Of a stretch of 64,000 nucleotides of DNA, positions 10,449 to 47,634 are shown one piece after another. The DNA lies in the NCBI GenBank assembly GCA_009712185.1, contig WASQ01000136.1, forward strand, positions 79,607 through 143,606, read 5' to 3'. The notes under the pieces were generated by a model. The model worked only from the letters and a program-made list of their open reading frames with translations, had not been told where the DNA came from and searched no databases. The stretch comes from Telmatospirillum sp. GTDB lineage: Bacteria > Pseudomonadota > Alphaproteobacteria > Rhodospirillales > Magnetospirillaceae. The position numbers and the translations under genes are program-made. Numbering within the stretch: position 1 is the stretch's first letter; each line of letters opens with the position of its first letter.

Positions 10449-10625
10449 CGCCCCTTCATCGGACCACGCCTGCCTGCGGCCGGAGCGGGGTTTGCCGCGA
10501 CCCTTATGCCAACGCCGAACCGACGCCTCCGCCCCGGCGCGTTTTCGCGCGTTCAGCCGGCTGCCGTGTCTTTGCCCGGCTTGTCGTCTTGATTTTGCGG
10601 CCCCGCCTTCCGATAATGACCGCAG

Positions 10626-10812
10626 GCCATGGTCTTCGGATGTCTTATCCGGAGCGTAAGAGGGAAATCGGTGCGCCCGCCCGCGCGGCAAAGCCGGTGC
10701 TGCCCCCGCAACTGTGAATGGCGAGTCCCTGTCCAAAACGTCACTGACGCATGGTCGCGTCGGGAAGGCGGACAAGGGGCGGCGACCCATCAGCCAGGAG
10801 ACCTGCCGTGGC
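10626..10812 (+). ncRNA. Cobalamin riboswitch RS2
   Basis: The plus strand reads GAGGGAAATCGGTG, GCTGCCCCCGCAACTGT, CGTCACTGACG, CGGGAAGG and CAGCCAGGAGACCTGCC, the ordered core of a cobalamin riboswitch. It stands upstream of a small protein gene (10994) and an ABC-2 transporter (11376-12841) rather than an import system, which is unusual. Confidence 0.93.
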
Positions 10813-10993
10813 CGCAAGGAACTGAAGGACGGGGCGTCCTGACCGGTTACCTGCCTCAGGCGTCGTCTTCCGTCGTCTGTCCTCGCAAGGTGTCCGCTTC
10901 GGGCCTCCATTTTCGAATGGGGTTGCAGGTGTTGTTTCCGATTGTTCGTGACCATGTTGTCTCACGCGTTCCCGCGGGTGGGAGGCCCTTGCC

Positions 10994-11375: not shown

Positions 11376-12095
11376 ATGATCGAAATCGTCGCGGCGACCA
11401 AGAGTTATGGCGCCGCGAAGGCTCTTTGCGGCGTCGATCTCACGATCGGCGCCGGAGAGGCCTTCGGTTTGCTGGGGCCCAACGGTGCCGGCAAGAGCAC
11501 GCTGGTCCGCCTTTTAGCCACCCTGTCGCGTCCCGACGGCGGGCATCTGCGCGTCGGCGGCCATGACACGGTGCGGGCGGCGTCCCGTGTGAAGCGCCTT
11601 CTGGGCGTGGTGTTCCAGGAAAACAACCTGGACCGCGATCTGTCGGCCCGCCAGAATCTGCTGTTCCATGCCGGTCTTTACGGTCTCGGCCGGGCGGCGG
11701 ACCGGGTGGCGGCCATGATCGGCCGTCTGGGGTTGTCCGGGGCGGCGGACCGCCCGGTCGGACAGTTGTCCGGCGGCCAGCGCCGGCGTCTGGTGATCGG
11801 CCGCGCCCTTCTGCCCGAACCCCGGGTTCTGCTGCTGGACGAGCCGACGACCGGCCTCGATCCCGCCGTCCGGCGCGAGCTGTGGGACCTGATCCGCCAC
11901 ATTCGCGACGGTGGCTGTACCATCGTCCTCACCACCCATTATGTCGAGGAGGCGGAGGCGCTGTGCGGCCGGATCGGCATCATCCGGCAGGGACGCATGG
12001 CGGCTCTCGGAACCCCGGACGAGCTGGTGGCGCGGTTCGGCGGTCCCCGCCTGGAGGATGTGGTGGTCCGCCTGGGCGCCGGGGGCGGGGCATGA
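11376..12095 (+). CDS. ABC-2 type transporter ATPase (DrrA/NodI-like)
   Basis: ATP-binding subunit of 239 residues with Walker A GPNGAGKST, Q-loop FQENNLDRDLSARQNL, signature LSGGQRRRLVIGRALL, Walker B RVLLLDEPTTGLD and the switch histidine in TTHYVEEAEALC. The long Q-loop region and the ending are those of the DrrA/NodI/CcmA group, which power ABC-2 exporters rather than BtuCD importers. GGGGGA lies 5 nt before the ATG, and its stop overlaps the permease start (ATGA, 12092-12095). Together with the permease it should form an export or flippase-like machine in the inner membrane. Its placement behind a cobalamin riboswitch links it to B12 status, but the cargo is unknown. Confidence 0.85.
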   Translation: MIEIVAATKSYGAAKALCGVDLTIGAGEAFGLLGPNGAGKSTLVRLLATLSRPDGGHLRVGGHDTVRAASRVKRLLGVVFQENNLDRDLSARQNLLFHAGLYGLGRAADRVAAMIGRLGLSGAADRPVGQLSGGQRRRLVIGRALLPEPRVLLLDEPTTGLDPAVRRELWDLIRHIRDGGCTIVLTTHYVEEAEALCGRIGIIRQGRMAALGTPDELVARFGGPRLEDVVVRLGAGGGA

Positions 12096-12841
12096 GCCTG
12101 CTGGATGGCGCCGGACCGATCTTCCGGCGCGAGATGCTGCTGTTCCGCATCAAGCTGGCGCGTCCCACCTTCGTCCTGTCGACCATGGTGACGCCGCTGT
12201 TCTACATGGTGGTGTTCGGCCTGGGGCTGGGCCGTCAGGTGCGCATGGCCGACGGATCCTATCTGTCCTTCCTGGTGCCCGGGTTGATGGGAATGGCGGC
12301 GATGCATAACGCCTTCGCCTGGGTGGCCAGCGGGATCAACATCGCGCGCTTCTACCACCGCACCTGGCAGGTGGTCATGCTGGCCCCCCTGTCGCCGGTG
12401 GCGGTCACCGCGGGCACCGTGGCCGCCGGCATGGTGCGCGGGCTGGTCGCCGCCCTGCTGGTCGGGGTCGCCGGGGCGGTCGCCGGCTGGCGTCCGTCGC
12501 CGACCCTGGTCCTGCCCGCCACCCTGCTGCTGGAAACAGCGCTTTTCGCCGCCTTCGGGATGGTGGTCGGGATCAAGACCAAAGGGGCGGAGGAATCGAG
12601 CACCTACACCAATTTCCTGATCACCCCCATGGGTTTCTTCTGCGGAACCTTTTTCCCCCTGTCCAACCTGCCGCCCTGGCTGGCCGCGCCGATGCATCTG
12701 CTGCCCCTGACCCACGCCAATATCGCCCTGCGCGAAAGTGGCCTGTCCCTCCTGGCCCTGACGTCGCTCGCGGTTCTGGCCCTGTTCACCGTCCTTCTCT
12801 GCGGCTGGGCCTGTCACGCGGTTGCCGGTTATCGGGAATAA
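12092..12841 (+). CDS. ABC-2 type transporter permease (NodJ-like)
   Basis: Inner-membrane permease of 249 residues with about six membrane segments and the ABC-2 family pattern: an N-terminal cytoplasmic lead (IFRREMLLFRIKLARPTF), an early segment TPLFYMVVFGLGLG, a central YLSFLVPGLMGMAAM, and the hallmark FLITPMGFFCGTFFPLSNLP near residue 180. NodJ, DrrB and related exporters share this layout. It is translationally coupled to the ATPase by ATGA. Products moved by relatives include lipo-oligosaccharides, antibiotics and polysaccharides, so the substrate here cannot be deduced; riboswitch control makes a corrinoid-related or metal-related cargo worth testing. Confidence 0.85.
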   Translation: MSLLDGAGPIFRREMLLFRIKLARPTFVLSTMVTPLFYMVVFGLGLGRQVRMADGSYLSFLVPGLMGMAAMHNAFAWVASGINIARFYHRTWQVVMLAPLSPVAVTAGTVAAGMVRGLVAALLVGVAGAVAGWRPSPTLVLPATLLLETALFAAFGMVVGIKTKGAEESSTYTNFLITPMGFFCGTFFPLSNLPPWLAAPMHLLPLTHANIALRESGLSLLALTSLAVLALFTVLLCGWACHAVAGYRE

Positions 12842-30752: not shown

Positions 30753-31765
30753 ACACCGAGAAAACCGCCTCTCCCCTTTACCCCTTTGTCGCCATCGTGG
30801 GGCAGGAGCGATTGAAGCGGAGCCTGATCCTGAACGTCATCAATCCCTCGCTGTCCGGCGTTCTGATCCGGGGGGAAAAGGGCACCGCCAAATCGACGGC
30901 CGTCCGGGCTTTGGCCGATCTGTTGCCCGATATCGAGGTGGTGGAGGGCGATCCCTTCCAAAGCGATCCCGCCGATCCCCGCTCCATGGCGCCCGAAGTA
31001 CGGGCCCGCCACGACGCCGGGGAACGCCTGCCGGTCAGGCGCCGCAAGGTCCGGGTGGTGGAACTGCCGGTGTCGGCGACCGAGGACCGGGTGGTGGGAA
31101 CGCTGGATCTGGAGCTGGCCCTGAAGGAGGGGCGCAAGAGGATCGAACCCGGCTTGCTGGCCGCCGCCAACCGGGGCATTCTCTATGTCGACGAGGTCAA
31201 TCTGCTCGATGACCATGTCGTCGATGTCCTGCTCGATTCGGCAGCCATGGGGGTCAACACGATCGAGCGCGAGGGCGTCAGTTTTTCACATCCGGCGCGC
31301 TTCACGCTGGTCGGAACCATGAACCCGGAGGAGGGGGATCTGCGTCCGCAGCTTCTGGACCGGTTCGGTCTTTGCGTCCATGTCGAGGGTCTCAACACCC
31401 CGGACCAGCGGGTGGAGGTGGTCAAACGCCGTGCCGCCTTCGAAGCTGATCCGGAGGCGTTCATGAGGCGCTTCGAAGAGGAGACCGCGTCGCTGCGCGA
31501 TACCGTCGCGACGGCGATCCGCCTTTGCCCCCACGTGGCCGCGGCCGATCGCATCCTGTTCAACATCGCCGAACGGTCGCTCACTCTGGGCGTGGACGGA
31601 CACAGGAGCGACATCGTGATGCTGAAAGCGGCCAAGGCCATTGCCGCCTGGGCCGGTCGCGACGAGGTGCTGGACGCCGATGTCGAGGAAGCCGCCGGAC
31701 TGGCCCTGGCGCATCGCATGCGCCGCCGTCCCTTCGAGGATATCCTGGGGCAGGCTCCGGCATGA
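30746..31765 (+). CDS. ChlI/BchI-like AAA+ chelatase subunit (ChlI1)
   Basis: A 339-residue AAA+ ATPase of the ChlI/BchI type with Walker [10 protein letters not shown], Walker [14 protein letters not shown], sensor region [19 protein letters not shown] and arginine-rich sensor 2. Two adjacent GTG codons could start it: 30746, with AAGGAG 8 nt upstream, or 30749, which overlaps the chlD1 stop as GTGA. Its partner is ChlD1, encoded immediately upstream, in the usual hexameric motor that couples ATP hydrolysis to metal insertion by a CobN/BchH subunit. It lacks the cysteine-rich insert found at the same position in ChlI2 (39231-40250). The 3' end overlaps the nitrilase gene by ATGA. Confidence 0.9.
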
Positions 31766-32562
31766 CGGTGGATAAGACCACCGCCCCTGTTGCCGCCCCT
31801 GCCGGACCGATCCGGGTGGCCCTGGCCCATCTGGCCCTCGCGGCCGGGCCGGGGGAACGCAATCTGGACCGTCTGGCGACGGCGGGCGGGGTGGCCGCCG
31901 AGGCTGGGGCCGACTGGGTGATCACCCCGGAAATGGCGGTTCAGGGCTATTTCTGCCTGGAGGAATGCGGTGGTGAGGGCCTGCGGCCGGATGTCGCCCT
32001 GGCGCCGCTGACCGGTCTCGCGGCACGCCACGGCCTGACATTGTTCCTGGGATGCGCGGAACGGGACGCTGGCACGGGCGCGCTTCACAACAGTTGCGTG
32101 GTGTTCGGGCCGGACGGACGCCCGCTCGGCCGGCACCGCAAGACCCGCCGGATCGGGCAGGCCGAATCCTGGGCCACGCCGGGAGAGGCGATCGATCCGG
32201 TCGCCAGTCCGGCCGGCCCGGTGGGGATCCTGGTCTGTGCCGATTCCTGGTGGACCGACAACACCGTCGCTCTGGCCGGGAAGGGGGCGACGGCGATCGT
32301 GGTGCCGGCGGCGTGGCCCCCGGGCAATCATGGTCCCGACGGATGCTGGGAGCGCGGTTCGCAATTGGGGCGAGTTCCCCTTTTCGTTTGCAATCAAACC
32401 GGGTATCATCCGCGCCTTGATTTTCGCGAGGCGGTCAGCATGGTCGCGATCGACGGCGCATCACGAATGGATCATAGCGGTGCTGAGGCGGTGCTTCTGT
32501 TCGACTGGTCTCCCGCAACCGGTGAGATCTTTGGAACGGCGTTCGACCAACGGTTTGTTTGA
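31762..32562 (+). CDS. Carbon-nitrogen hydrolase (nitrilase superfamily)
   Basis: A 266-residue hydrolase with the full nitrilase-superfamily triad: glutamate E57 in [11 protein letters not shown], lysine K127 in GRHRKTR, and cysteine C159 in [10 protein letters not shown]. Members cleave nitriles or amides or transfer amide nitrogen. It starts inside the chlI1 stop (ATGA) and is the last gene of the RS5-led operon. Corrinoids carry six or seven side-chain amides, so hydrolysis of a corrin amide or of an intermediate from CbiZ action is an attractive idea, but no sequence feature fixes the substrate. There is no signal peptide, so it acts in the cytoplasm. Confidence 0.82.
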
Positions 32563-32575
32563 CATTTTTATTTGT

Positions 32576-32595
32576 ATGAAAAAAATAATTTTCAT
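32576..32595 (+). promoter_or_regulatory. AT-rich palindrome before the cobN3 operon, operator-like
   Basis: ATGAAAA (32576-32582) and TTTTCAT (32589-32595) form a perfect 7-bp palindrome around a 6-nt AT core. It lies 13 nt upstream of a candidate -35 box at 32608 and follows the end of the nitrilase gene by 13 nt. It could be an operator for a metal-responsive repressor such as a Fur-family protein, though the sequence is not a textbook Fur box. Confidence 0.4.
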
Positions 32596-32607
32596 CATAA
32601 ACAACTG

Positions 32608-32636
32608 TTGACCCTTGCCTCGACCTTCTCCTAGGG
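32608..32636 (+). promoter_or_regulatory. Candidate promoter of the cobN3 operon
   Basis: TTGACC (32608-32613) and CTAGGG (32631-32636) are 17 nt apart, with a good -35 and a weak -10. The remaining leader to the ATG at 32697 is only about 60 nt, too short for a cobalamin riboswitch, and contains none of its core motifs. Confidence 0.35.
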
Positions 32637-32696
32637 TGGCGTCGTTCGACGAGCCTATGCCTTAAGACATGGGATGCAGCGAGCGGTGGGGGCGTC

Positions 32697-33686
32697 ATGA
32701 TCAACGAAGCGATACGCGCGGCGGTTGTCGTCGTCTTGCTGGCTTTCCAACTGGCCGGCGTGGCGTGGGCGGACCCTGTGACCGTGACCGACAAGTCGGG
32801 CAGGACCGTCACCGTTGAGGCGCCCGTGCGGCGGGCCATCCTTTTCGAAACCTATGAGGTGACATCGGCGCTGGGGGCCTGGGACCGGGGCGTCGGGATC
32901 AGCCGTTATGCCTTTGATAACGATCTGGTCAAGGCCGGCCGGCCCGGACTCCGCGCGGAGGTGGCTGACGGCGGTGCCATGGCCGACGTGAATGTCGAAC
33001 ATCTGCTGGCGCTGAACCCCGATCTGGTGGTGGTCTGGAGCCTCAATCCAGGGCTGGTGTCCTTCCTGGAGGGCAAGGGAATTCCGGTGATCGTCTGCAA
33101 TCCGGAATCGCCGCAGGAGGTGATGGACGCCCTGCGCCTGCAAGGCCGCCTGTTTGACCGCCGGGCGGAGGCGGAGCGGGCGGCGGGCGCGATCCGGGCG
33201 ATGCTGGACAAGGTGGCTGCCCGCACCCGTGACATGGTGCCCGCGGATCGCCGGCATGGTCTTTGGATGCTGGGCAAGCCGACGGTGGTGGGCGCCAGGA
33301 ACTCCGTCGCCGCGCGGATCATGGTGGCCGCCGGGATCGACAATGTGGCGGGCGACATACCGGAGAGCTGGGCCGAGGTGCCGGTGGAGCGCATTCTGGC
33401 CTGGAATCCCGATATCGTTTTCATCTGGGGCTGGGCGCGTTTCGAGGCCGGGGACATCGTCTCCGGCGGGCAATGGCAGAATCTGACGGCGGCGCGTCGC
33501 GGCACGGTCTGGAAGACCCCGCGCTGGTCCACCTGGTCGCCGCGTCTCGCGCCGATGGCGCTCTGGATGGCCTCCAAGGCCTATCCGGACCGGTTCCGCG
33601 ATGTCGATGTCAGGGGCGAAATCGACAGCTTTTTCCGCGCCGTCTACGGTATCCCCTATGACAGGGTGAGCCCGCTTGACCCTTAA
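32697..33686 (+). CDS. BtuF/HmuT-type substrate-binding protein (importer C)
   Basis: Periplasmic binding protein of 329 residues. A short signal (AAVVVVLLAFQLAGVAWA, cleavage about residue 25) precedes PVTVTDKSGRTVTVEAPVRR, typical of the iron-siderophore/haem/B12 binding-protein family. The second half has LNPDLVVVWSLNPG and WNPDIVFIWGWARFEAGDI. It differs from the STAVCADQ-type proteins of importers B and D. It starts the second chelatase operon, which lacks a riboswitch, and its 3' end overlaps the permease gene by 11 nt. The ligand could be a corrinoid, haem or another metal chelate; linkage with cobN3 and a TonB receptor favours a metallo-tetrapyrrole. Confidence 0.82.
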   Translation: MINEAIRAAVVVVLLAFQLAGVAWADPVTVTDKSGRTVTVEAPVRRAILFETYEVTSALGAWDRGVGISRYAFDNDLVKAGRPGLRAEVADGGAMADVNVEHLLALNPDLVVVWSLNPGLVSFLEGKGIPVIVCNPESPQEVMDALRLQGRLFDRRAEAERAAGAIRAMLDKVAARTRDMVPADRRHGLWMLGKPTVVGARNSVAARIMVAAGIDNVAGDIPESWAEVPVERILAWNPDIVFIWGWARFEAGDIVSGGQWQNLTAARRGTVWKTPRWSTWSPRLAPMALWMASKAYPDRFRDVDVRGEIDSFFRAVYGIPYDRVSPLDP

Positions 33687-34650
33687 GGCCGTCCTTATTT
33701 TCGTGGCGCCACTGGTGATCGGTGTCGCCGCCTTGTTCGTGGGCGCCTATGGTCTGGCGCCATCCGACGTCATCGCCGCCCTGCCCGGGGGGCGGAGCGC
33801 CGCCGCGGCTTCGGTGGTTCGCGACGTGCGGCTGCCCCGCGGCATCCTGGCGGGACTGGGCGGCGCCTCGCTGGCCGGGTCGGGCGCGACGCTTCAGGCG
33901 GTGTTCCGCAATCCTCTGGTCGATCCCTTTCTGTTGGGAATTTCCTCGGGCGCCGCCCTGGGATGCGCCATCGGCGTCGGCTTCCTGCCGTTCCTGCCGG
34001 TGCCGCTGCTGGCATTCCTCTTCGGACTGGGAGCGGTGGCCCTGACCTGGGGACTGGGGCGCGGCGTCGGCGGCGACGACCGGCTGTCGATGGTGCTGGC
34101 CGGGGTGGTGGTTTCGGCCCTGTTCACCGCGCTGGTCTCGCTGGTCAAAGTGATGGTCGATCCCCTTCGGCTGCAAAGCATCGTGTTCTGGCTCATGGGC
34201 AGTTTCTCCCTGGCCAACTGGCGCCATGTCGCCATCGCCGGAACCGGTGCCGCCATTGGTCTCGTTCCGATGATCCTGTTCCGGTGGCGTCTCAATATGC
34301 TGTCGCTGGGCGACGAGGAGGCGGCGGGGCTCGGCATCGATGTCCGGCGCATGCGTTTCCTGTTCGTGGCCGCGACCACCCTGGCGGCGGCGACCGCCGT
34401 ATCGGTCTCGGGTGTCGTCGGATGGATCGGCCTCATGGTTCCCCATCTGGTCCGCATGGCGACCGGTCCCGATCATTGCCGGTCGCTGCCCCTGTCGATC
34501 GCGGGCGGCGCGGCTTTCATGATCGCCGCCGACACCCTGGCGCGTTCCCTGGTGTCCTGGGAGGTCCCAGTGGGGATCGTGACGGCGCTGGCCGGGGCGC
34601 CCTTCTTTGCCATGATCATGCGCCGGGGCCGGTCGCGGTGGGCGCCATGA
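33676..34650 (+). CDS. FecCD/BtuC-type permease (importer C)
   Basis: Inner-membrane permease of 324 residues with about ten membrane segments. It has the family marks VRDVRLPRGILAGLGGASLA, LQAVFRNPLVDPFLLG, MLSLGDEEAAGLGIDVRRM and VVGWIGLMVPHLVRMATG. The start is a TTG at 33676, inside the end of the binding-protein gene and preceded by AGGGTGAG; no in-frame ATG precedes the first membrane segment. NPLVDPFLLG is closer to siderophore and haem permeases than the NPLAEPGL of importers B and D. It couples to the ATPase gene by ATGA and should move the ligand of importer C into the cytoplasm where CobN3 resides. Confidence 0.87.
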   Translation: MTLKAVLIFVAPLVIGVAALFVGAYGLAPSDVIAALPGGRSAAAASVVRDVRLPRGILAGLGGASLAGSGATLQAVFRNPLVDPFLLGISSGAALGCAIGVGFLPFLPVPLLAFLFGLGAVALTWGLGRGVGGDDRLSMVLAGVVVSALFTALVSLVKVMVDPLRLQSIVFWLMGSFSLANWRHVAIAGTGAAIGLVPMILFRWRLNMLSLGDEEAAGLGIDVRRMRFLFVAATTLAAATAVSVSGVVGWIGLMVPHLVRMATGPDHCRSLPLSIAGGAAFMIAADTLARSLVSWEVPVGIVTALAGAPFFAMIMRRGRSRWAP

Positions 34651-35423
34651 TCGCCGTCGAAACCCTGACATTCGGGCATCGGGGCGCACCGGCACCGGTG
34701 CTGCGCGATATCGGTTTCACCCTGGCGCCCGGTCAGGTGACGACCCTGCTGGGACCCAACGGGTCGGGCAAAACCTCGCTGTTGCGGTGCGTCGCCGGCC
34801 ATTGGCGGCCCCAAGCCGGACGGGTTCTGCTGGGGGGCGACGATGTCGCGGCCCTGTCGGCACGGGATCGGGCGAAGCGTCTCGCCCTGGTGCCCCAGGA
34901 CCAGGGGGTCGCTTTTTCCTACAGCGTCCGCGATATGGTTCTGATGGGGCGTGGCCCCCATGTCGGGCCCTTCGGCATGCCCGGCGGTGCCGATCGCGAC
35001 ATGGCGCGGCAGGCCCTGGAGGCGGTCGGTATCGCCGCCCTGGCCGACCGCGACATCCGGCGGATTTCCGGGGGGGAACGGCAACTGGCGCTGGTCGCCC
35101 GCGCCCTGGCGCAGGCGACGCCGGCCCTTCTGCTTGACGAGCCAACATCCCATCTCGATCTCCGCAATCAGTTGGCCGTGAGGGCGCGCATCCGCGACAT
35201 CGGCCGGGACCGGGGTCTGACGGTGCTGATGACGCTGCACGACCCCAATCTGGCCCTGATGTTCGCCGACCGGGTTCTCCTGCTGAAGGACGGCCGGGTC
35301 GTGGCCGACGACCGGCCGGACCGGGCGATCACCGAAAGCACCGTCCACGCCGTTTATGGCGTCGCCGCCGATGTGCGGGAAAACGGGGGACGGCGCTGGA
35401 TTGTGCCGAGGGACATGGAATGA
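34647..35423 (+). CDS. BtuD/FecE-type ABC ATPase (importer C)
   Basis: ATPase of 258 residues with Walker A GPNGSGKTS, Q-loop LVPQDQGVAFSYSVRDMVLM, signature ISGGERQLALVARALA, Walker B ALLLDEPTSHLD and the switch histidine in TLHDPNLALMFADR. The order and coupling (ATGA with the permease) are those of an importer operon. The stop overlaps the start of a 26-codon ORF, again as ATGA, which in turn overlaps cobN3, so importer and chelatase genes are knitted into one translational unit. The family spans B12, haem and siderophore importers, so it does not identify the ligand. Confidence 0.88.
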   Translation: MIAVETLTFGHRGAPAPVLRDIGFTLAPGQVTTLLGPNGSGKTSLLRCVAGHWRPQAGRVLLGGDDVAALSARDRAKRLALVPQDQGVAFSYSVRDMVLMGRGPHVGPFGMPGGADRDMARQALEAVGIAALADRDIRRISGGERQLALVARALAQATPALLLDEPTSHLDLRNQLAVRARIRDIGRDRGLTVLMTLHDPNLALMFADRVLLLKDGRVVADDRPDRAITESTVHAVYGVAADVRENGGRRWIVPRDME

Positions 35424-35500
35424 GCGGCAAGACGGGATCGCCTTCCGGCTTTCCGGAGGGTCCCATTTTTCACCCCGGCTGGGAGGCCATGCGCAGATGA
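35420..35500 (+). CDS. 26-residue ORF coupled to both neighbours
   Basis: A very short frame starts with an ATG that overlaps the ATPase stop (ATGA, 35420-35423) and ends with a TGA that overlaps the cobN3 ATG (ATGA, 35497-35500). The 26 residues begin MSGKTGSPSGFPEG and end HPGWEAMRR. Perfect coupling at both ends suggests it is translated, either as a microprotein of the chelatase system or as a device that keeps ribosomes moving into cobN3. GGGAGG inside it (35481-35486) also serves as the cobN3 ribosome-binding site. Confidence 0.5.
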   Translation: MSGKTGSPSGFPEGPIFHPGWEAMRR

Positions 35501-38500
35501 GGATTTTCGCCGTCCTGTGGCCGAACTGGGTGCCCCTGCTGCGGGACGCCTGTTCCCGTGCCGGCATTGAGGCCGAGGTCCATTCGACGCGCCGCATGGC
35601 CGCCGACTGGCCCGCCTTGTCCGCGGGAATGCGCTCGGCCGACGTCATCTTGCTCTATCGCACGAATGACGGCTTCTGGCCGGAGTTCGAACGGCTGATT
35701 CCGGTCGACCGGACCGTGGTCGTCGCCGGGTCGGATCCGGCCTCGTGGCGGATCGCCACCGTGCCGATGCCGGACTGCGCCCGCGTCCATTCCTTCCTGC
35801 AAGCCGGTGGCCGGGAGAATATCGACCGCCTGCTGGCCTTCCTGTCGGGCGACGACAGCGTGATGCCCCGTCCCGAACCGTGGGAGGGGATTTTCCATCC
35901 CTCCCTGGGGCGCGTGTTCGATGACACCGATGGCTATCTCGGCGCCTATCACGCGTGGCTGGGATGGGCGCCGGATCGTCATGTCGGACTGCTGATGTCC
36001 CGGACCAACTGGATCACCGGCAATCTCGCGGTCGAGACGGCCGTGATCGGTGCGCTGGAACAGCGGGGCATCGGCGTGATTCCGGTCTTTCTTTATGCCA
36101 TGCGCGATCAGACTCTCGGCAATCAGGGCGGAATCGAGGTGGTTGACCGGTTCCTGACCCGGGAGGGGCGGTCCCGGGTCGCCGGCCTCGTCAAAATGAC
36201 CGGTTTTCCCCTTGGCGCCGCCGCCGGTCCGACGACGGACCCTGATCCGGTGTCGGGGCCGGCCTTGCTGCGGCGTCTCGGGGTTCCCTTGTTCAATCCG
36301 GCCGTGGTGTCCGGCCAGACCGAGGAGGAATGGCGGGCCAATCCGGCAGGGCTTGGCATGCAGGCGGCCTGGAACATCGCCTTTCCGGAATTCGAGGGCG
36401 CCATCCTGCCCATGGCGGTCGGGGCGCTGGGCAGCGACGAGGATGGGCATACCCTGCCCATCGCCTCCCGCGTGGAGCGCTTCGCCGACCGGCTGGCGGC
36501 CTGGCTGTCGCTGGCCGTGAAGCCCCCGGCATCGCGCAAGGTCGCCTTCATTCTGAACAACAACCCTTGTGTCGGGGCGGAGGCCTCGGTCGGCGGCGGG
36601 GCGCATCTCGATACCCTGGAATCGGTGGTTCGCGTCATGCGGCGGCTTCAGGGACAGGGCTATGCGATCGATCCGCCCGACGACGGCAAGGCCCTGATCG
36701 ACCGGATCCTGGAGCGCAAGGCCCTGTCGGAGTTCCGCTGGACGACGGTGGAGGATATCGTGTCCCATGGCGGGGTGCTGGCCCGGGTCCCCGAACACCG
36801 TTATCGGGACTGGTTCGACGCCTTTCCGTCCGGGGTGCGGTCAGACATGGTCGCGGCCTGGGGCGATCCCCCCGGCCGGCCGCTCGACGGCGTTCCGGCC
36901 GCGATGGTCCACGACGGCGATATCCTGGTGACGGGCCTTGCCTTCGGCAATGCGGTGGTCTGCGTCCAGCCCAAGCGCGGCTGCGCCGGGGCGCGCTGCG
37001 ACGGAACCGTCTGCCGCATCCTGCATGACCCCAAGGTGCCGCCGCCGCATCAGTATCTGGCAACCTATCTGTGGCTGGCGCGTGATTTCGGCGCCGATCT
37101 TCTGGTGCATGTCGGGACGCATGGCAATCTGGAGTTCCTTCCCGGCAAGGGGACCGGGCTGTCCGACGCCTGCTATCCCGACCTCGCCCTTGACCGCATG
37201 GCGCATCTTTACATCTACAATTGCGACAATCCGGCGGAAGGCACGGCGGCCAAACGGCGCGGCCATGCGACGCTGGTCGACCATATGCAGACGATCGTGG
37301 TCCCGGGGGAGCTTTACGGCGATCTGGACGCGCTGGACCGGATGCTGGACGACTATCACGCGCTGGCCGCCACGGAGCCGGGCAAGGCGCACACGGTCGG
37401 TCATCTGATTGTCGACAAAGCCCGGGGCCTTCAGATCCTGGATCACGAGCCCGGGCACGATGGTGTGGCGGCGGCGGTCGCGGAGATCCATAACCGCGTG
37501 ACCCTGCTGAAGGGCACCCGCATTCCGAAAGGCATGCATATTTTCGGCGACATTCCCGAAGGGGAGCGTCTGGCGGAATTCGTCCATGGCATCGCCCGCT
37601 GGGACAACGGGCCGGACAGTTTGCGCGGCCGGATCAGAACGGCGCTGGGCGCCGGTCATCTGCCCTGGGACAGCGATGAGGGCATGCGGGCCGACGCCCT
37701 GGCGCGCGACGCGGTCAAGGCGCTGATCGAACGGGGAGAGGGGCTGGCCGGCACATTGGCGCCGCTGTCGGTCGACGCAGGAGCCCTGGCCGGCATCGAG
37801 GCGGCGCTTCTGGAACTGGCGGAACGGATCCGCGCCAGCGACGAACTGGCCTCCTTCGCCGCGGCCGCCGACGGCGCCTATGTTCCGCCGGGGCCGGCCG
37901 GCCTGATCTCGCGCGGGCATGCCGACGTGCTGCCGACGGGGCGAAACTTCTATTCCATCGATCCCAACAAGGTGCCGACCCCGGCCGGCGCCGAGATCGG
38001 TCGCCTTCTGGCCGAAGCGCTTTTGGAACGGCACCACAGGGAGGAGGGCCGTTATCCCGAAAATGTCGCCATCTATTGGCAGTGCAACGACATCATGTGG
38101 GGCGGCGGCGAGGGGTTGGCCCAGATGCTGCATCTGCTGGGAGTTTGTCCGACCTGGCAGGGAAACGGCCGGATGGGGCCCTTGCGGGTGATTCCGCTGT
38201 CGGAGCTGAAACGGCCCCGGATCGACGTCACCGTGCGGGCGTCGGGCCTCACGCGCGACAATTTTCCGCAGGTGATCGATCTCCTCGACGAGGCGATCCT
38301 GATGGTCGCCGCGCTGGACGAGCCGGCGGATCGCAATTTCGTGCGCCGCCACAGCCTCGAGAAAATCGCGGCCGAGGGGGCCGATCCGGCCGATCCCGAG
38401 GCGTGGCGGCGCGCCAATTACCGGATCTTTTCCGCCATGCCCGGCACCTATGGCGCGGGAGTCAACCTCGCGATCTATGCCTCGGCCTGGGAAACCGACG

Positions 38501-39234
38501 CCGATCTGGCCGAGGTGTTCCTGGCCTGGAATTCCTTCGCCTATGGCAAGGGCGTGGCGGGCGTGGCGGCGCGGCCGTCGCTCACCGGGTCGCTCAAAAG
38601 CGTCGATGCCAGTTTCGGCAAGACCATGACCGACAGCTATGACCTGTTCGGCTGTCCCTGCCAGTTCGCCACCCATGGCGGGCTGATCAAGGCGGCGGAG
38701 GCGGTGTCCGGTCATGCCATCCGGAACTATTTCGGCGACACCCGCGAGCAGGGCGAGGCCAGGGTCGGGACCCTGCGCGACGAGATCCGACGTGTGGCCC
38801 GCGGCAAGCTTTTGAATCCGGTGTGGATCGAAAGCATGAAGGAGCACGGATACAAGGGAGCCGGCGACATGATGAAACGCGTCGGCTACGTCTACGGCTG
38901 GCAGGCGACATCGGGCGAGGTCGACGGCGCCATTTTCGACGACATCGCCCGCACTTTCGTCATGGACGGAGGCAACCGCGCCTTTTTCCAGGACAACAAC
39001 CCCTATGCCCTGGAAGAGATGACGCGCCGCCTGATCGAGGCGCAGGGGCGGGGACTCTGGAGCCCGGCCCCGGATGTCGCGGCCGCCCTCAAATCCCAAT
39101 ACATCGAGATCGAAGGTTGGATCGAGGAACGGATGGCCGACACGGAGGGCGATTTTCAGGGCGGCGCCATCGATGTGCAAAGGCTGGCCGATAGTCCAGG
39201 CTGGCAGAAAGGACTTGGGAGAAAGACGCCATGA
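35497..39234 (+). CDS. CobN/HmuS-superfamily chelatase-like protein (CobN3)
   Basis: A 1,245-residue CobN/BchH-superfamily protein. It retains the histidine motif VHVGTHGNLEFLPGKGTGLS (about residues 537-556), YIYNCDNPAEGTAAKRRGH and HGYKGAGDM, so it looks catalytically competent. It differs from CobN1 in carrying RGCAGARCDGTVC (about 493-505; C-x4-C-x4-C) and LFGCPCQFATHGG where CobN1 has the DSDDY/GGM region. These features are shared, in part, with CobN2. The ATG at 35497 has GGGAGG 10 nt upstream. Genes for an importer precede it and its own ChlI/ChlD pair follows by ATGA overlap. By analogy with HmuS of Bacteroidota hmu loci it may remove metal from an imported chelate; insertion is equally possible. 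Confidence 0.88.
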   Translation: MRIFAVLWPNWVPLLRDACSRAGIEAEVHSTRRMAADWPALSAGMRSADVILLYRTNDGFWPEFERLIPVDRTVVVAGSDPASWRIATVPMPDCARVHSFLQAGGRENIDRLLAFLSGDDSVMPRPEPWEGIFHPSLGRVFDDTDGYLGAYHAWLGWAPDRHVGLLMSRTNWITGNLAVETAVIGALEQRGIGVIPVFLYAMRDQTLGNQGGIEVVDRFLTREGRSRVAGLVKMTGFPLGAAAGPTTDPDPVSGPALLRRLGVPLFNPAVVSGQTEEEWRANPAGLGMQAAWNIAFPEFEGAILPMAVGALGSDEDGHTLPIASRVERFADRLAAWLSLAVKPPASRKVAFILNNNPCVGAEASVGGGAHLDTLESVVRVMRRLQGQGYAIDPPDDGKALIDRILERKALSEFRWTTVEDIVSHGGVLARVPEHRYRDWFDAFPSGVRSDMVAAWGDPPGRPLDGVPAAMVHDGDILVTGLAFGNAVVCVQPKRGCAGARCDGTVCRILHDPKVPPPHQYLATYLWLARDFGADLLVHVGTHGNLEFLPGKGTGLSDACYPDLALDRMAHLYIYNCDNPAEGTAAKRRGHATLVDHMQTIVVPGELYGDLDALDRMLDDYHALAATEPGKAHTVGHLIVDKARGLQILDHEPGHDGVAAAVAEIHNRVTLLKGTRIPKGMHIFGDIPEGERLAEFVHGIARWDNGPDSLRGRIRTALGAGHLPWDSDEGMRADALARDAVKALIERGEGLAGTLAPLSVDAGALAGIEAALLELAERIRASDELASFAAAADGAYVPPGPAGLISRGHADVLPTGRNFYSIDPNKVPTPAGAEIGRLLAEALLERHHREEGRYPENVAIYWQCNDIMWGGGEGLAQMLHLLGVCPTWQGNGRMGPLRVIPLSELKRPRIDVTVRASGLTRDNFPQVIDLLDEAILMVAALDEPADRNFVRRHSLEKIAAEGADPADPEAWRRANYRIFSAMPGTYGAGVNLAIYASAWETDADLAEVFLAWNSFAYGKGVAGVAARPSLTGSLKSVDASFGKTMTDSYDLFGCPCQFATHGGLIKAAEAVSGHAIRNYFGDTREQGEARVGTLRDEIRRVARGKLLNPVWIESMKEHGYKGAGDMMKRVGYVYGWQATSGEVDGAIFDDIARTFVMDGGNRAFFQDNNPYALEEMTRRLIEAQGRGLWSPAPDVAAALKSQYIEIEGWIEERMADTEGDFQGGAIDVQRLADSPGWQKGLGRKTP

Positions 39235-40250
39235 TGTTTCCGTTCACCGCCATCGTCGGGCAGGAAGCGTTGAAGACCGGGCTGATCGTCAATGTGATCG
39301 ATCCGGGTGTCGGCGGGCTTCTGGTCATGGGCGAGAAGGGGACGGCCAAGTCCACCGCCATCCGTTCATTGGCCGATCTGCTGCCCGCCATGACCGCCGT
39401 CGCCGGCTGTCCCTATCGATGCGCGCCACGACCGCAGGGGGATGGGCCGCATTGCGACTGCCCCGCCTGCGCCGATCCCGCCGGGGCAACGGTTCCGGTC
39501 CGGATGCGTGTCGTCGAACTGCCGCTGGGGATCACCGAGGACCGGCTGATCGGCACCATCGATATCGAAGAGGCGCTGCAAAGCGGCCGCAAACGGTTCG
39601 AACGGGGGCTGCTGGCCGAGGCGAACCGCAATTTCCTTTATGTCGACGAGGTCAATCTTCTGGAGGACCATATCGTCGACCTGCTGCTCGATTCCGCCGC
39701 CATGGGGCGTAACACGGTGGAGCGCGAGGGAATTTCGGTCAGCCATCCGGCCCGCTTCATCCTGGTCGGCAGCATGAACCCGGAGGAGGGGGAGCTTCGG
39801 CCGCAGTTCCTGGACCGGTTCGGTCTGGCCGTCCGGGTGGCCGGTCTGTCGGACAAGGAGGGGCGGCTTCAGATCCTGCGCCGGCGCATGGCCTTCGACG
39901 CCGACCCCGCCGGTTTCGCGAAAGGCTGGGAGCGGGAACAGCAGGCTCTGGCGGACCGCATCGCGACGGCCCGCGACCGCCTGCCCGGCGTCACGGTGCC
40001 GGAGGACATTCTGGACCGCATCGTCGCCATCACGGCATCGCTGGCGCTGGACGGCCACCGCGCCGACATCGTCATGGTACGCGCCGCCCGCGCGCTGGCC
40101 GCCTTCCGGGGGATGGCCGAGGCCGGTGTGGAGGAGGTTCGTGACATCGCCGGGTTCGCGCTGATGCACCGGCAGCGGCGCCAGCCGTTCGAGGAAATGG
40201 GGGCCGGCGCGGGCCGCCTGGACCAGATTCTGGCGGACACGCTGACATGA
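39231..40250 (+). CDS. ChlI/BchI-like AAA+ subunit with cysteine-rich insert (ChlI2)
   Basis: A 339-residue ChlI-type AAA+ ATPase. Walker A is GEKGTAKST (about residues 35-43), Walker [14 protein letters not shown], and [19 protein letters not shown] follows. Between the Walker motifs (about residues 62-84) is an insert with five cysteines, GCPYRCAP then HCDCPACAD, absent from ChlI1 and from typical BchI. It could bind zinc or an Fe-S cluster and sense metal or redox state. Similar cysteine inserts occur in some ChlI-like proteins of other bacteria and archaea as far as I recall. It is coupled by ATGA to cobN3 before it and to chlD2 after it. Confidence 0.88.
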   Translation: MMFPFTAIVGQEALKTGLIVNVIDPGVGGLLVMGEKGTAKSTAIRSLADLLPAMTAVAGCPYRCAPRPQGDGPHCDCPACADPAGATVPVRMRVVELPLGITEDRLIGTIDIEEALQSGRKRFERGLLAEANRNFLYVDEVNLLEDHIVDLLLDSAAMGRNTVEREGISVSHPARFILVGSMNPEEGELRPQFLDRFGLAVRVAGLSDKEGRLQILRRRMAFDADPAGFAKGWEREQQALADRIATARDRLPGVTVPEDILDRIVAITASLALDGHRADIVMVRAARALAAFRGMAEAGVEEVRDIAGFALMHRQRRQPFEEMGAGAGRLDQILADTLT

Positions 40251-42067
40251 CCATGCTGGCCGGGAGCGCCGGTCAGGAGGCCGCCTGTCTCGCGGTCCTG
40301 TTGGCGGCCGGGGAGCCGGGGCTGGGCGGCGGGCTGCTGATCGGGGCCGGCGGAACCGGAAAGTCGGCGATCGCGCGCGCCATGGAAGGGGTGCTTCCGG
40401 AGGGAACGCCGTTCGTCACGGTACCCCTTCATGCGGACGGCCCGGCGCTGACCGGAGCGATCGATTGGGAACGCTCTGTGGCGGAGGGGCGGCGCGTGCT
40501 GCGTCCCGGTCTTCTGGAACGCGCCAGGGGGGGCGTTCTGCTGCTCGACGATCTGCATCTGCTGTCCCCTGAGACGGCCGGTCTCCTGTCGCGCGCCGCC
40601 GGCGTCACCCTGGTGGCCACCGCGCGCTCCGCCGAGGGAGATCTGTCCCGCCATCTTCTGGACCGGTTCGGGCTGGTGGCCCCGATGGCGCTTTTGCACC
40701 GGCCCGCCGAACGCCGCGCCGTCCTCATCGCGGCGCTGGCGGGGCCGGATCCCGGTGCCGCCGACCGCGCCGGCCGGCTGGTGGCGGCCGCCCGGAGCCG
40801 TCTGCTCCGCCTGCCCGTTCTGGCGCCCTTGGTGGAGGAGGCGATCGCGATCCTGGCGGAGGAGGCCGATGCCGAGGGGCATCGCGGCGAACTGTTCCTG
40901 GCCCGGGCGGCGCGCGCCCTGGCCGCCTGGGAAGGGGCGCCGGCGGTCACGATCGGCCATGTGGAGCGGATGGCGCCGCTGGTGCTTGAGCATCGGCGCC
41001 GCCAGGAGCGGGCCGGGGAAACCCCGCCGGAGGAACAGAGGGATGAGGCGGGGGATTCCGGAGCATCGCAGGACACCCCCGGCGATGGATCGCCTCCGCC
41101 ACCGGACGGCGCGCAGGACCATTCCGCCGGCGCCGACGCCGGTCCGGACGACCATCCCGGCGATCCCTCCGAAGGGATCGAGCCACCCCGCGATGGCGGG
41201 CGTCCGCGCGAAGAGGTGATGGAAACCGGCGAGTCGTTCCAGGTCCGTCCGATCCGCCCGCCCAAGGACCGGGTCCGGCGCCATTGTCAGGGGCGGCGTA
41301 GCCCGAGCGCGGCGCGCGGGCGCACCGGGCATGTGATCCGGACCGTGGACCGGGGTGAGCCCGGCGACATCGCGTTGATGGCGACCCTGCGGGCGGCGGC
41401 GCCCTTTCAGCGCGCGCGGGGACGCGAGGGGCGGATCCTGATCGTCAAGGACGACCTGCGCTATTGCCGGCGCGAGGGGCATGTCAGTTCGCTGGTCCTG
41501 TTCCTGGTGGACGCCTCCGGCTCGATGGGTGCGGCCCGGCGCATGGTGGCGGTCAAGGGCGCGGTGCGGTCGCTGCTGATGGATTGCTATCAAAAGCGGG
41601 ACCGCGTGGCGTTGGCGGCCTTCCGGCGGGACGACGCCGAACTGGTCCTGCCGCCGACCCGGAGCGTCGAGCGGGCGGAACGGCGTCTGGATGGTCTGCC
41701 GGTGGGGGGGCGGACGCCGCTGGCCGCCGGTTTCGTCGAGGCCGGCCGCGTCATCCGTCAGGAGCAGCGTCGCGATGCCCGTGGCCGGATTCTTCTGGTT
41801 CTGCTGTCGGATGGTCGCGCCAATCAGGCCCTGGCGGGCGGCCAGCCCCTGGACGAATCCCGCAATGCCGCGCGGTTGCTGGCGGGCCGTCCGGGGCTCG
41901 ACATCCTGGTGATCGACACAGAGGACAAACGGTCTTTCCACCGGGCGGATCTGGCCCGGCAACTCGCCGCCGATCTGGCGGCCGATTATGTGACGCTGTC
42001 CGATCTGGCGGCGCCGGATCTCGCCGATCTGGTCCGCGCGACCCGCCGGCGTCTTTCCTTTCATTAA
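40247..42067 (+). CDS. ChlD/BchD-like chelatase motor subunit (ChlD2)
   Basis: A 606-residue AAA+/VWA protein of the chelatase D type. The AAA+ part keeps Walker A GAGGTGKSA but Walker B is VLLLDDLHLL, and the domain is shorter and more diverged than that of ChlD1. A proline- and acid-rich linker (about residues 255-330) leads to the VWA domain with MIDAS DASGSMG (about 425) and LLSDGRANQALAGG. It begins in the chlI2 stop (ATGA). It should assemble with ChlI2 and act on CobN3. The receptor gene follows after 19 nt, so the operon ends with the outer-membrane component. Confidence 0.87.
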   Translation: MTMLAGSAGQEAACLAVLLAAGEPGLGGGLLIGAGGTGKSAIARAMEGVLPEGTPFVTVPLHADGPALTGAIDWERSVAEGRRVLRPGLLERARGGVLLLDDLHLLSPETAGLLSRAAGVTLVATARSAEGDLSRHLLDRFGLVAPMALLHRPAERRAVLIAALAGPDPGAADRAGRLVAAARSRLLRLPVLAPLVEEAIAILAEEADAEGHRGELFLARAARALAAWEGAPAVTIGHVERMAPLVLEHRRRQERAGETPPEEQRDEAGDSGASQDTPGDGSPPPPDGAQDHSAGADAGPDDHPGDPSEGIEPPRDGGRPREEVMETGESFQVRPIRPPKDRVRRHCQGRRSPSAARGRTGHVIRTVDRGEPGDIALMATLRAAAPFQRARGREGRILIVKDDLRYCRREGHVSSLVLFLVDASGSMGAARRMVAVKGAVRSLLMDCYQKRDRVALAAFRRDDAELVLPPTRSVERAERRLDGLPVGGRTPLAAGFVEAGRVIRQEQRRDARGRILLVLLSDGRANQALAGGQPLDESRNAARLLAGRPGLDILVIDTEDKRSFHRADLARQLAADLAADYVTLSDLAAPDLADLVRATRRRLSFH

Positions 42068-42086
42068 TCAGATTTGGATTTCAGAC

Positions 42087-44303
42087 ATGGACGATATTTT
42101 GAAAAAGCGCCGTCATGTTCCGGTCCTGATCCTGCTGGCGGATGTGCTGGCAGCGGGCGGGGCATCGGTCGGTGGGGCATCGGCTGCCGAGACGACGACC
42201 ATGACGGAGTTCGACCCGGTCGTGATCACCGCGACCCGGACGGGAATTCATGCCTCCGATGCGCCGGCGTCGGTCTCCGTGATCACGAGGGACGAGATCG
42301 AGCGCAAGACGGTGGGACGCGTCGGCGACGCGCTGTCGGGAACCACCGGCCTGTTCCTGCGCGGCAGCGCCTTCGGCGATGTCAGTCCGGGTGGCAGCAC
42401 CGGCACTGTCACCATGCGCGGCGTATCGGGGTCGAGCCGTACCCTGATCACGATGGATGGGCAGACCCTGAATTCGCCCTATTCAGGCTCGGTGGACTAT
42501 TCGGCGCTCGACATCGATGAGATCGACCATATCGAAGTCGTTCCCGGGGCCTTTTCGTCGCTCTATGGCGGCAGCGCCTTCGCGGGCGTCGTCAATGCCG
42601 TCACCAAGGCCCCGGACAAGCGGGAGACCATTCTGAAAGCGGGGATCGGCGGGGCGTCCGACCAGTATTTCATGCAGACCGGCAGCGCGCTCTACCGCGA
42701 CCGGATCGGCCGGGTCGGCGTTTCCGTGGGGTTGGCCGGCACCAACAGCAGCGGTTACGAGGACGATTTCGGGACCGGGAAACCGCCGGCCGCGGCGGTG
42801 GGCGGCGCCACCACGATCCCGACCACCACCGGCGGCACCACCAGCCTGCTGGGCCAGAAGGGCAAGAAACCATGGGACCAGGAGCGCGGCCACCTGACCC
42901 TGTTCCTGGACCCGTCGGACGCCACGACCCTGTCGCTTGGCGTCAGCCGCAGCCAGGAACGGGTCGGCTACAGCGCGCCCCGGAGTTATCTCGTGGACCG
43001 GTCCGGCAATCCGGTGTTCAGCACGTCGCTTCTCACCTATACGCCCAGCTCGGAATCCGTGACCCGCGTCTTCCTGCGGTCCGAGACGGATCTGGCGCCA
43101 CAGGTGAAACTGAAGACCGATGCCAGCTATTCGGAATTCGGCTACTGGTATGTCTCGCCCAATCTGACTTACGCCACGGCCAATGGCGGCCGGGGAACCT
43201 TCTTCGACGCGCCCAGCACGCGGATCGACGGGACCCTTCAGGTCGATGCCGGCCTGGGGTCCTGGAATACCCTGACGGTGGGGGTGAACGCCAAGCAGGA
43301 GGATTTCCGCCGGCGCAATTATGACCTGTCCAATTTCCATGACGAGGACAGCAAGGGCGCGAAAAACTATCAGGCCGAGGGGACCTCCAATACGGTCGCC
43401 GGCTTCATCCAGGACCGCATGGACCTGACCAGCCGGCTTGCCGCCTATATCGGCGGCCGTTACGATTATTTCGTGGCGCAGGGCTCGACCCAGCAATGGA
43501 AGACGCCGGAACAGAGCGCCCCGGGCTTCCGCAACAGCTACGGGCCCCGCTGGGACTCGGCCTTCAGTCCCAAGGCGTCGCTGGTCTACAAGCCGGTCGA
43601 CGGCCTGACCCTGAGGGCGTCGGGCGGCACCGCCTTCCGCCCGCCGGGGCTGATCGACATGTACACCAAGCAGGTGACCTCCACGTCGACCACTTCGCCC
43701 GATCCGACGCTGAAGCCCGAAACCGTGACATCCTGGGAGGCGGGCGGCGATCTCCGCCTGCCGACCGAAACGACCGTCAAGGTCACGCTGTTCGAAAACC
43801 ATATGCGGGACCTGATCTATACCCAGACCCTGAGTCCGACGCAGAAGCTGAAGATCAACGCCGGCCGGGCGATGTCGCAGGGTGTCGAAATGGGCGTCGA
43901 ACAACGGGCCTTGCAGGGCCTGACCCTGTTCGCCAACGCGACCTACACCCACTCAAAAATGCAGGAGAACGCCGCGGCGCCCAGCAGCGTCGGCCAGCGG
44001 CTGACCTATGTGCCGCTGTGGATGGCGAATTTCGGGGTCGACGGCGAGATCGACCGCTGGTCCGGCAGCCTCACCGGCCGCTATGTCGGCAAGGTGTTCG
44101 CCACCGACGGCAACACCGACGTGGCCCAGGGGTCCTATGGCATGTACGACCCCTATGTCACCGTCGATGCCAAAATCGCCTATGAGGTGCTGGACGGAAC
44201 CAAGGTCAGCGTCGCGGTCGGCAACCTGTTCGACCATGGCTATTACCAGTATTACCGGATGCCCGGGCGCACCTTCTTCGGCGAATTGTCGGTCAGGTTC
44301 TGA
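42087..44303 (+). CDS. TonB-dependent outer-membrane receptor (receptor 3)
   Basis: Outer-membrane receptor of 738 residues. The signal ends near GGASAAE; VVITATR resembles a TonB box; the plug has TLITMDGQTLNSPYSG and GAFSSLYGGSAFAGVVNAV; the barrel has FRPPGLIDMY and ends LSVRF with a terminal phenylalanine. It is the last gene of the riboswitch-free chelatase operon, 19 nt after chlD2, and is followed by an inverted repeat at 44310-44339. It should bring the ligand of importer C across the outer membrane. Its plug region differs from those of receptors 1, 2 and 4, which are behind cobalamin riboswitches, so a ligand other than cobalamin (for example haem or another metal chelate) is plausible. 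Confidence 0.88.
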   Translation: MDDILKKRRHVPVLILLADVLAAGGASVGGASAAETTTMTEFDPVVITATRTGIHASDAPASVSVITRDEIERKTVGRVGDALSGTTGLFLRGSAFGDVSPGGSTGTVTMRGVSGSSRTLITMDGQTLNSPYSGSVDYSALDIDEIDHIEVVPGAFSSLYGGSAFAGVVNAVTKAPDKRETILKAGIGGASDQYFMQTGSALYRDRIGRVGVSVGLAGTNSSGYEDDFGTGKPPAAAVGGATTIPTTTGGTTSLLGQKGKKPWDQERGHLTLFLDPSDATTLSLGVSRSQERVGYSAPRSYLVDRSGNPVFSTSLLTYTPSSESVTRVFLRSETDLAPQVKLKTDASYSEFGYWYVSPNLTYATANGGRGTFFDAPSTRIDGTLQVDAGLGSWNTLTVGVNAKQEDFRRRNYDLSNFHDEDSKGAKNYQAEGTSNTVAGFIQDRMDLTSRLAAYIGGRYDYFVAQGSTQQWKTPEQSAPGFRNSYGPRWDSAFSPKASLVYKPVDGLTLRASGGTAFRPPGLIDMYTKQVTSTSTTSPDPTLKPETVTSWEAGGDLRLPTETTVKVTLFENHMRDLIYTQTLSPTQKLKINAGRAMSQGVEMGVEQRALQGLTLFANATYTHSKMQENAAAPSSVGQRLTYVPLWMANFGVDGEIDRWSGSLTGRYVGKVFATDGNTDVAQGSYGMYDPYVTVDAKIAYEVLDGTKVSVAVGNLFDHGYYQYYRMPGRTFFGELSVRF

Positions 44304-46834: not shown

Positions 46835-47634
<800 letters not shown>

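Follow-up and report, generated by a model that had tools for sequence, protein, structure and literature searches.

What is the use of an additional CobN-type chelatase, encoded together with an importer, an outer membrane receptor and its own ATP-driven motor, to a bacterium that already holds a canonical CobN? This question is raised by a seven-gene operon in a 64,000-nucleotide stretch of DNA from Telmatospirillum sp. (GenBank assembly GCA_009712185.1, contig WASQ01000136.1, positions 79,607 to 143,606 of the forward strand), which we refer to as the window. The chelatase of this operon, CobN3, falls in a clade marked by four conserved cysteines, and its relatives in a distant phylum are accompanied not only by import and chelatase genes but also by an ABC-2 exporter, whose ortholog in the window (11376-12841) follows a cobalamin riboswitch. 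We tentatively posit, with a confidence just short of an even chance, that operon and exporter together form a B12- or cobalt-directed system of import, chelatase and export, in which the metal would be released and the empty ligand returned.

A compact operon with a riboswitch-free leader

Open reading frame (ORF) and domain calls, together with the short intergenic gaps (-11, -4, +73, -4, -4 and +19 nt in operon order, taking 35497 as the start of CobN3), bear out the proposal of an earlier, sequence-only reading that importer, receptor, CobN-family chelatase and its own ChlI/ChlD pair (ChlID) form one operon, which occupies 32697-44303:

32563..32696, plus strand: leader, with no riboswitch and with an AT palindrome (32576-32595) that overlaps a sigma70-like promoter (32559-32586)
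32697..33686, plus strand: PBP3, periplasmic binding protein (PBP; Peripla_BP_2), with a signal-peptide-like N-terminus
33676..34650, plus strand: FecCD/BtuC-type permease (domain match)
34647..35423, plus strand: ABC importer ATPase (domain match)
35356..39234 (likely start 35497), plus strand: CobN3, class I chelatase large subunit (PF02514, 1120 bits)
39231..40250, plus strand: ChlI3, AAA+ motor subunit (Walker A GEKGTAKST, recognised by eye; Walker B FLYVDE)
40247..42067, plus strand: ChlD3, AAA/VWA subunit (AAA lid and VWA; MIDAS DASGS)
42087..44303, plus strand: TBDR3, TonB-dependent receptor (domain match)

The residue numbers of CobN3 used below (C405, C543, C548, C553, H589, C1100 and C1102) are counted from 35356, the start of the longest frame. 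The ATG at 35497 (residue 48) is nevertheless the likelier start, since the alignments with kin begin near there: at residues 37 and 46 in the two kin matched in one piece, and at 44-48 in four others.

Seven cobalamin riboswitches occur in other parts of the window. The leader of the operon has none and holds an AT palindrome, both as the sequence-only reading had it; the palindrome, ATGAAAAAAATAATTTTCAT, is the one such site found against 0.03 expected (allowing up to 2 mismatches), and it overlaps the sigma70-like TTGACA-16-AAAAAT. Its perfect core occurs at 3 sites in the whole 6.1 Mb genome, and inspection by eye of the ORFs flanking the other two recognised nothing metal-related, so that it does not look like the site of a regulon. 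The riboswitch-led operon upstream ends 134 nt before the PBP3 operon, and as this gap is so short and no terminator-like site was found within it, transcription could also read through from upstream.

CobN3 stands apart from CobN, BchH and the HmuS-like clade

The genome encodes five CobN/BchH-type proteins (six matches, two of which are pieces of CobN2). These include a canonical CobN on contig C30 (TIGR02257, 1621 bits against a cut-off of 822) and a BchH on contig C58 (NF009942, 2032 bits against 1166), and CobN3 should therefore not be needed for ordinary cobalt insertion or for bacteriochlorophyll synthesis. CobN3 itself stays below the cut-offs of the canonical CobN model (TIGR02257, 698 bits against 822) and of the BchH/ChlH model (TIGR02025, 697 against 829). 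Its best model is NCBIfam NF004646 (PRK05989.2-4, cobaltochelatase subunit CobN), which it matches at 1395 bits, 73 under the cut-off of 1468, and which the two distant CobN3 kin that were tested pass with 2036 and 2053 bits; the name of this model is an annotation only.

In three trees, of 46, 46 and 34 rows, CobN3 and the distant proteins formed one clade with a Shimodaira-Hasegawa-like approximate likelihood ratio (SH-aLRT) support of 100. This clade was sister (99) to the CobN2 proteins of the window and of Chlorobia, joined in the third tree by the CobN2 of three relatives, whilst canonical CobN with CobN1, BchH and the HmuS-like group each stood apart from both; the trees were made by a quick method and their rows are uneven in composition. 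Approximately unbiased (AU) tests on the 34-row tree, for which 16 of 50 rows had been dropped for speed or long branches, rejected every forced union of the CobN3 clade: with the HmuS-like group (p 8.7e-5), with canonical CobN and CobN1 (p 6.5e-4) and with BchH (p 7.6e-4). CobN3 does not, then, lie within canonical CobN, and firm nesting there was one of the outcomes that the sequence-only reading had named as refuting its proposal. As far as such comparisons go, CobN3 is a separate type, outside canonical CobN, BchH and the HmuS-like clade, and grouped with the CobN2 of the window.

HmuS is represented in these trees by three HmuS-like proteins and not by HmuS itself; for one of the three, HmuS is the best match among solved structures (497 bits), and the other two group with that one. 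A hunt for a reference in Bacteroidota gave family matches in 31 of 118 genomes, and none of those checked, which were not all, could be identified as HmuS; for this reason the positions of HmuS were located by way of a paralog and a truncated alignment in print. Passages of PMC12583661 place the haem site of HmuS at Met-79 and His-254 (in HGR), and describe a motif LSLDHxxEFMGG and a catalytic His-538 in HFG(T/A)HG. Neither haem-site residue has an equivalent in the aligned head and neck segments of CobN3. Only the last of these features occurs in CobN3 (VHVGTHG, with H589), and it is superfamily-wide. CobN3 also has no strongly hydrophobic N-terminal segment, the highest 19-residue hydropathy within its first 160 residues being 0.79, although this is a crude comparison: two HmuS-like rows reach 1.83 and 1.87, yet CobN2 also reaches 1.79. 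Any 60 residues of CobN3 hold at most 4 methionines, a count that may not by itself set it apart from HmuS with its methionine-rich insertion.

A cysteine signature and the active site

Four cysteines (C405, C543, C548 and C553, together Cys4) are complete in 7/7 rows of the CobN3 clade and 10/10 of the CobN2 clade, and in 0/33 of the other chelatase rows of the alignment, in which rows from one lineage are not independent. The last three sit in the segment KRGCxGARCDGxVCRILH of CobN3. The two clades part at the histidine that is catalytic in the superfamily: it is retained in CobN3, where H589 in GTHG occupies the position of HmuS H538, and replaced by Ser or Glu in 10/10 rows of CobN2. The loop opposite this histidine reads DSDDYYQFEGG in CobN, DIDHYYEYLGG in BchH and DLFGCPCQFATHGG in CobN3, with the CobN and BchH rows aligning free of gaps; the motif at the same place in HmuS is the LSLDHxxEFMGG given in PMC12583661, and CobN3 does not have it. 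A further pair of cysteines makes up a Cys-x-Cys loop. The position of C1100 is Cys in 7/7 rows of the CobN3 clade, 6/10 of CobN2 and 6/33 of the others, and that of C1102 in 6/7, 9/10 and 0/33, respectively, with Asp or His in 32/33 of the others.

The structure model of CobN3 is weak (mean pLDDT 49.8). Its strands 302-306, 439-443 and 488-492 (the CobN3 number is the model number + 94) end just before C405, C543 and H589; the blocks where these three strands start score 62, 85 and 70, whilst most of the loop 543-553 falls in blocks of 31-48. On this model, C405, the cysteine loop 543-553 and H589 would all lie in post-strand loops of one domain, and it is conceivable that they meet in space. 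The Cys4 site may bind a metal or an iron-sulphur (Fe-S) cluster. A cluster in CobN3 would not be unheard of, since titles in the reference list of PMC7242693 report iron-sulphur clusters in a BchH and in CbiX, a small chelatase.

Our search of the open-access literature found no report of a Cys4 site in CobN, nor of an exporter partnered with such chelatases. Within the reach of that search, the Cys4 clade is new, as are the loss or retention of the histidine inside it, the Cys-x-Cys loop and an exporter as conserved partner.

Distant loci add an exporter to the set

CobN3 is rare among the relatives of its host. No protein outside the source genome (G000) exceeded 39% identity among 99 relatives, and searches of 385 genomes of the class (E<=1e-170) and 398 of the phylum (1e-185) found a CobN3 match only in the source genome itself; class and phylum sets are overlapping samples, and the source genome is counted in all three. 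A profile of the Cys4 domain likewise found only the source genome in the 385 class genomes at E<=1e-80, although three relatives do have CobN2. On plasmids, 159 records have matches to the Cys4 segment, the best of the 8 listed being 39% identical and, if annotated, named CobN. The nearest relatives of CobN3 instead come from six genomes of a small distant phylum (19 genomes), with 45-49% identity over almost the full length. A seventh (G839) is a fragment at a contig end, 64-65% identical. An exact-peptide scan of the contigs of named genomes gave two loci.

In these distant loci much of the operon recurs. A TonB receptor (partly cut by contig ends), a PBP, a FecCD permease and an importer ATPase are found in five of the six, the exception being L071, and ChlI with ChlD also in five of six, with the pair missing at L068 because the stretch ends 259 nt after CobN. 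All six have an ABC-2 exporter, ATPase and permease. In L070 the genes run on one strand in the order AdoCbl riboswitch-CbiM-receptor-CobN3-ChlID-PBP-exporter-FecCD-ATPase-TonB-DUF2162; L067 has two AdoCbl riboswitches, one before a receptor and one before DUF2162, with a CbiX-CbiC gene upstream.

The exporter has an ortholog in the window, at 11376-12841, which makes it a member of the conserved set that the sequence-only reading had missed:

10613..10824, plus strand: cobalamin riboswitch ahead of the ABC-2 exporter
11376..12095, plus strand: ABC-2 exporter ATPase, ortholog of the exporter in the six distant CobN3 loci and in genome G037
12092..12841, plus strand: ABC-2 exporter permease (ABC2_membrane)

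A small ORF of 120 aa (10994-11356) stands between riboswitch and exporter. ATPase and permease of the window are 46-51% and 39-45% identical to those of the six distant exporters in BLAST pieces (46-49% and 34-40% by multiple alignment), and the next ATPases after these orthologs, among those compared, reach 40% or less. Identities rise to 78% and 80% (77% and 74% by multiple alignment) in G037, which belongs to the same family. The exporter of G037 follows orthologs of PBP3, FecCD and the ATPase (47, 68 and 56%), and this set runs divergently from an rSAM-CobN1-CobN2-ChlD-ChlI operon headed by a riboswitch; CobN3 was not seen there. The gene set is patchy, for PBP3 orthologs (E<=1e-35) occur in only two of 55 family genomes, the source genome and G037. 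Among 72,556 plasmid records a single relative of the exporter permease was found (E<=1e-5), on Calditerrivibrio nitroreducens pCALNI01, where a cobalamin riboswitch lies next to it, as do a FecCD importer, a gene for a sirohydrochlorin cobaltochelatase and genes of the corrin pathway. Within the window it is the exporter, and not the operon itself, that follows a riboswitch, and the exporter ties the operon to the B12 regulon.

The receptor has similar company. Considering the best 20 of 537 plasmid records, the closest relative of TBDR3 is a receptor on Trichlorobacter (Geobacter) lovleyi pGLOV01 (37% over 94%, E 2e-110; the next match is at 8e-32), which lies directly behind two tandem cobalamin riboswitches, among cob genes in a cobalamin/cobalt region. 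The L067 receptor has the same best plasmid relative (37%, 4e-123). Haem receptors carry a haem-ligand histidine between their FRAP and NPNL segments; no histidine stands between the corresponding segments of TBDR3, of the three distant receptors aligned or of the pGLOV01 receptor. The best solved relatives of PBP3, for which the structure model is poor (mean pLDDT 43), are 4ls3 and 4ino (117 and 116 bits), entered as nickel and iron periplasmic binding proteins, with 38-39 bits for BtuF entries and 22 bits for the haem-binding 2r7a.

A possible mechanism, and what speaks for other readings

How could these parts work together? In the reading we favour, TBDR3 would take a metal-bearing, tetrapyrrole-type ligand across the outer membrane, and PBP3, FecCD and the ATPase would take it across the inner membrane. 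CobN3, powered by ChlI/ChlD, would then move the metal in a cleft between H589 and the Cys-x-Cys loop, whilst the Cys4 site, in loops of the same domain, may supply electrons or hold metal. The metal, perhaps cobalt, would be released in the cytoplasm and the ABC-2 exporter would return the empty ligand, as in a siderophore cycle. It is this logic, with an exporter conserved alongside importer and chelatase, that makes metal release the likeliest direction. The gene content and its recurrence in another phylum, the B12 riboswitches on some of its parts, the separate clade and the cysteine signature are observations; the ligand, the metal and the direction are, like the nature of the Cys4 site, what we infer. 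As the exporter, and kin of the operon and of its receptor, have riboswitches, the set may be expressed under B12 shortage, and the CbiM gene next to the L070 operon suggests a need for cobalt. A more specific version, in which B12 shortage leads to export of a metal-free tetrapyrrole that is re-imported loaded and has its cobalt pulled out by the ATP-driven Cys4 chelatase, we consider doubtful.

Several observations weigh against metal release in a B12-linked system. The operon has no riboswitch of its own (an Rfam search of 32400-32800 returned no family match even at E<=1), none was found on the relevant strand in the leader of the G037 PBP3 operon, only two of the six distant loci have a riboswitch at threshold and the other four none, and in L067 neither of the two is directly before CobN3. 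In L071, 1.4 kb separate CobN3 from the contig end, and no importer gene appears there. Identity between PBP3 and its counterparts is as low as 22-27% in four distant loci, with no match in the fifth at 1e-5, and ChlI3 shows no specific grouping with the ChlI of those loci, so that its co-inheritance with CobN3 is not supported. To our knowledge, moreover, all known ATP-driven class I chelatases, and with them the known ChlID-driven partners, insert metal, and removing cobalt from a finished corrin is very hard; both points favour insertion.

Indeed, CobN3-ChlID could be a salvage cobaltochelatase that gives cobalt to imported metal-free or wrongly metallated corrinoids, a reading we regard as somewhat unlikely but as the main rival. 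The catalytic histidine is retained in CobN3, two further CobN are encoded upstream in one operon with CbiZ and BtuFCD-like genes, CbiM comes first behind the riboswitch in L070, and a passage in PMC8620254 speculates on cobalt insertion into acquired cobalamin for receptor-adjacent chelatases of Chlorobaculum. Insertion leaves no obvious role, however, for an exporter that travels with the set, a canonical CobN is already present on C30, and the active-site loop of CobN3 is unlike that of the aligned CobN rows. Zinc or nickel uptake through a metallophore, along the lines of the P. aeruginosa operon PA1922-PA1925, which is controlled by Zur and includes a CobN-like gene, seems improbable. It would suit the nickel- and iron-binding entries nearest to PBP3 and the palindrome that stands in the leader in place of a riboswitch, but we know of no Zur site resembling that palindrome, and the cobalamin riboswitches on the window exporter and on kin of receptor and operon, like the Cob/Cbi neighbours in kin, argue otherwise. 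The P. aeruginosa precedent does pair a receptor with a cobN-like gene under Zur (PMC8531726).

Least probable by our estimate, and very much so, is a dechelatase locus for haem (or a Zn or Mg porphyrin) as an alphaproteobacterial relative of hmuYRSTUV, the interpretation to which the sequence-only reading inclined. It has in its favour the company of a CobN-family protein with importer and receptor, and TBDR3 scores 194 bits on a haem-receptor model against 153 on a B12-receptor model, both far under cut-off, a result that counts against a B12-directed receptor as well. Tree, motifs and context nevertheless lead us to reject kinship with the hmu haem loci: the grouping with the HmuS-like clade is rejected, CobN3 has none of the Met79/His254 equivalents, the LSLDHxxEFMGG motif or a strongly hydrophobic N-terminal segment, the receptor segment is without the haem-ligand histidine, and the context of kin is one of B12 and cobalt. 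The operon also brings ChlID, whereas recombinant HmuS alone converts ferrohaem, as described in a passage of PMC12583661. What stands of the earlier interpretation is a coupled system with a non-canonical CobN3 behind a riboswitch-free leader; its identification as a counterpart of the haem dechelatases is not supported.

Neighbouring chelatases and other features

The operon upstream, led by a riboswitch at 15844-16134, encodes BtuFCD-like proteins, CbiZ, a radical SAM protein (rSAM), CobN1, CobN2, ChlD, ChlI and a carbon-nitrogen hydrolase, the last gene (31525-32562). With the hydrolase, CbiZ and radical SAM, it is possibly a set for remodelling corrinoid side chains. Its CobN2 (25112-28756) and the orthologs in Chlorobia and three relatives retain Cys4 with Ser or Glu for the catalytic histidine, and CobN2 is by its sequence likely a non-catalytic partner of CobN1. 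The Chlorobia loci (L073-L077) have CobN1-ChlD-ChlI-CobN2 with TonB receptors, syntenic with 19686-31762 of the window; the rSAM gene is present in L074-L076, L073 and L077 being cut stretches.

Two proteins of the HmuS-like clade, the CobN of the G. lovleyi plasmid (L128, 21736-25836) and a paralog beside the operon of genome G847 (L116, 11893-16011), have a hydrophobic N-terminal segment yet lie in B12 loci, and are possibly non-haem relatives of HmuS. On the minus strand of the window, 2604-8634 holds another riboswitch-led receptor-PBP-FecCD-ATPase operon, and downstream of the CobN3 operon an ORF of 288 aa (46949-47815) has no Pfam match.

Known systems and the roles of extra chelatases

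A close parallel is the double-CobN operon of Chlorobia (rSAM-CobN1-ChlD-ChlI-CobN2 with TonB receptors), whose CobN2 is sister to CobN3 and shares Cys4 with it. That CobN2 is without the catalytic histidine (10/10), whereas CobN3 has it and has no CobN1 in its own operon. The hmu operon, with HmuS/BtuS, also combines receptor, importer and a CobN-superfamily protein with the GTHG histidine, but CobN3 differs in its own ChlID, its active-site loop, its clade and its want of a strongly hydrophobic N-terminal segment; passages in PMC6460266 give B. fragilis BtuS as predicted to be exported and membrane-attached, and others in PMC12583661 give HmuS as membrane-bound and NADH-dependent. The cobN-exbBD-tonB cluster of T. 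lovleyi (pSZ77/pGLOV01) contains the riboswitch-led receptor closest to TBDR3 on plasmids, within the same best 20 records, whilst its CobN, 60% identical to the G847 paralog, is a member of the HmuS-like clade, and the annotation of the 38 kb examined lists neither ChlI nor ChlD. C. nitroreducens pCALNI01 resembles our set in that a cobaltochelatase lies near a cobalamin riboswitch together with an ABC-2 exporter and a FecCD importer. It differs in that its chelatase carries a sirohydrochlorin-type annotation, that neither CobN nor a receptor is annotated across the 36 kb examined, and that its exporter permease is only about 30% identical to that of the window.

Clusters of receptor and chelatase near B12 genes have been noted before, in passages of PMC3403914 and PMC8620254, and PMC6460266, citing Rodionov 2003, counts BtuS as a third type of CobN-like protein. 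In a comparison of >10,000 sequences of the CobN/ChlH/HmuS type, as given in part of PMC12583661, few clusters were assigned a function and most of the others could not be annotated reliably. A Cys4 clade, of which one branch retains the catalytic histidine and another has lost it, and which occurs alongside import, receptor and export genes of the B12 regulon, offers a testable entry into the roles of such extra chelatases: they may supply cobalt, salvage metal-free corrinoids or extract metal. Should extraction prove true, ATP-driven class I chelatases would also run in reverse, and a cobalt-scavenging CobN3 would be, as far as we know, the first ATP-driven member of the CobN/ChlH superfamily known to extract a metal.

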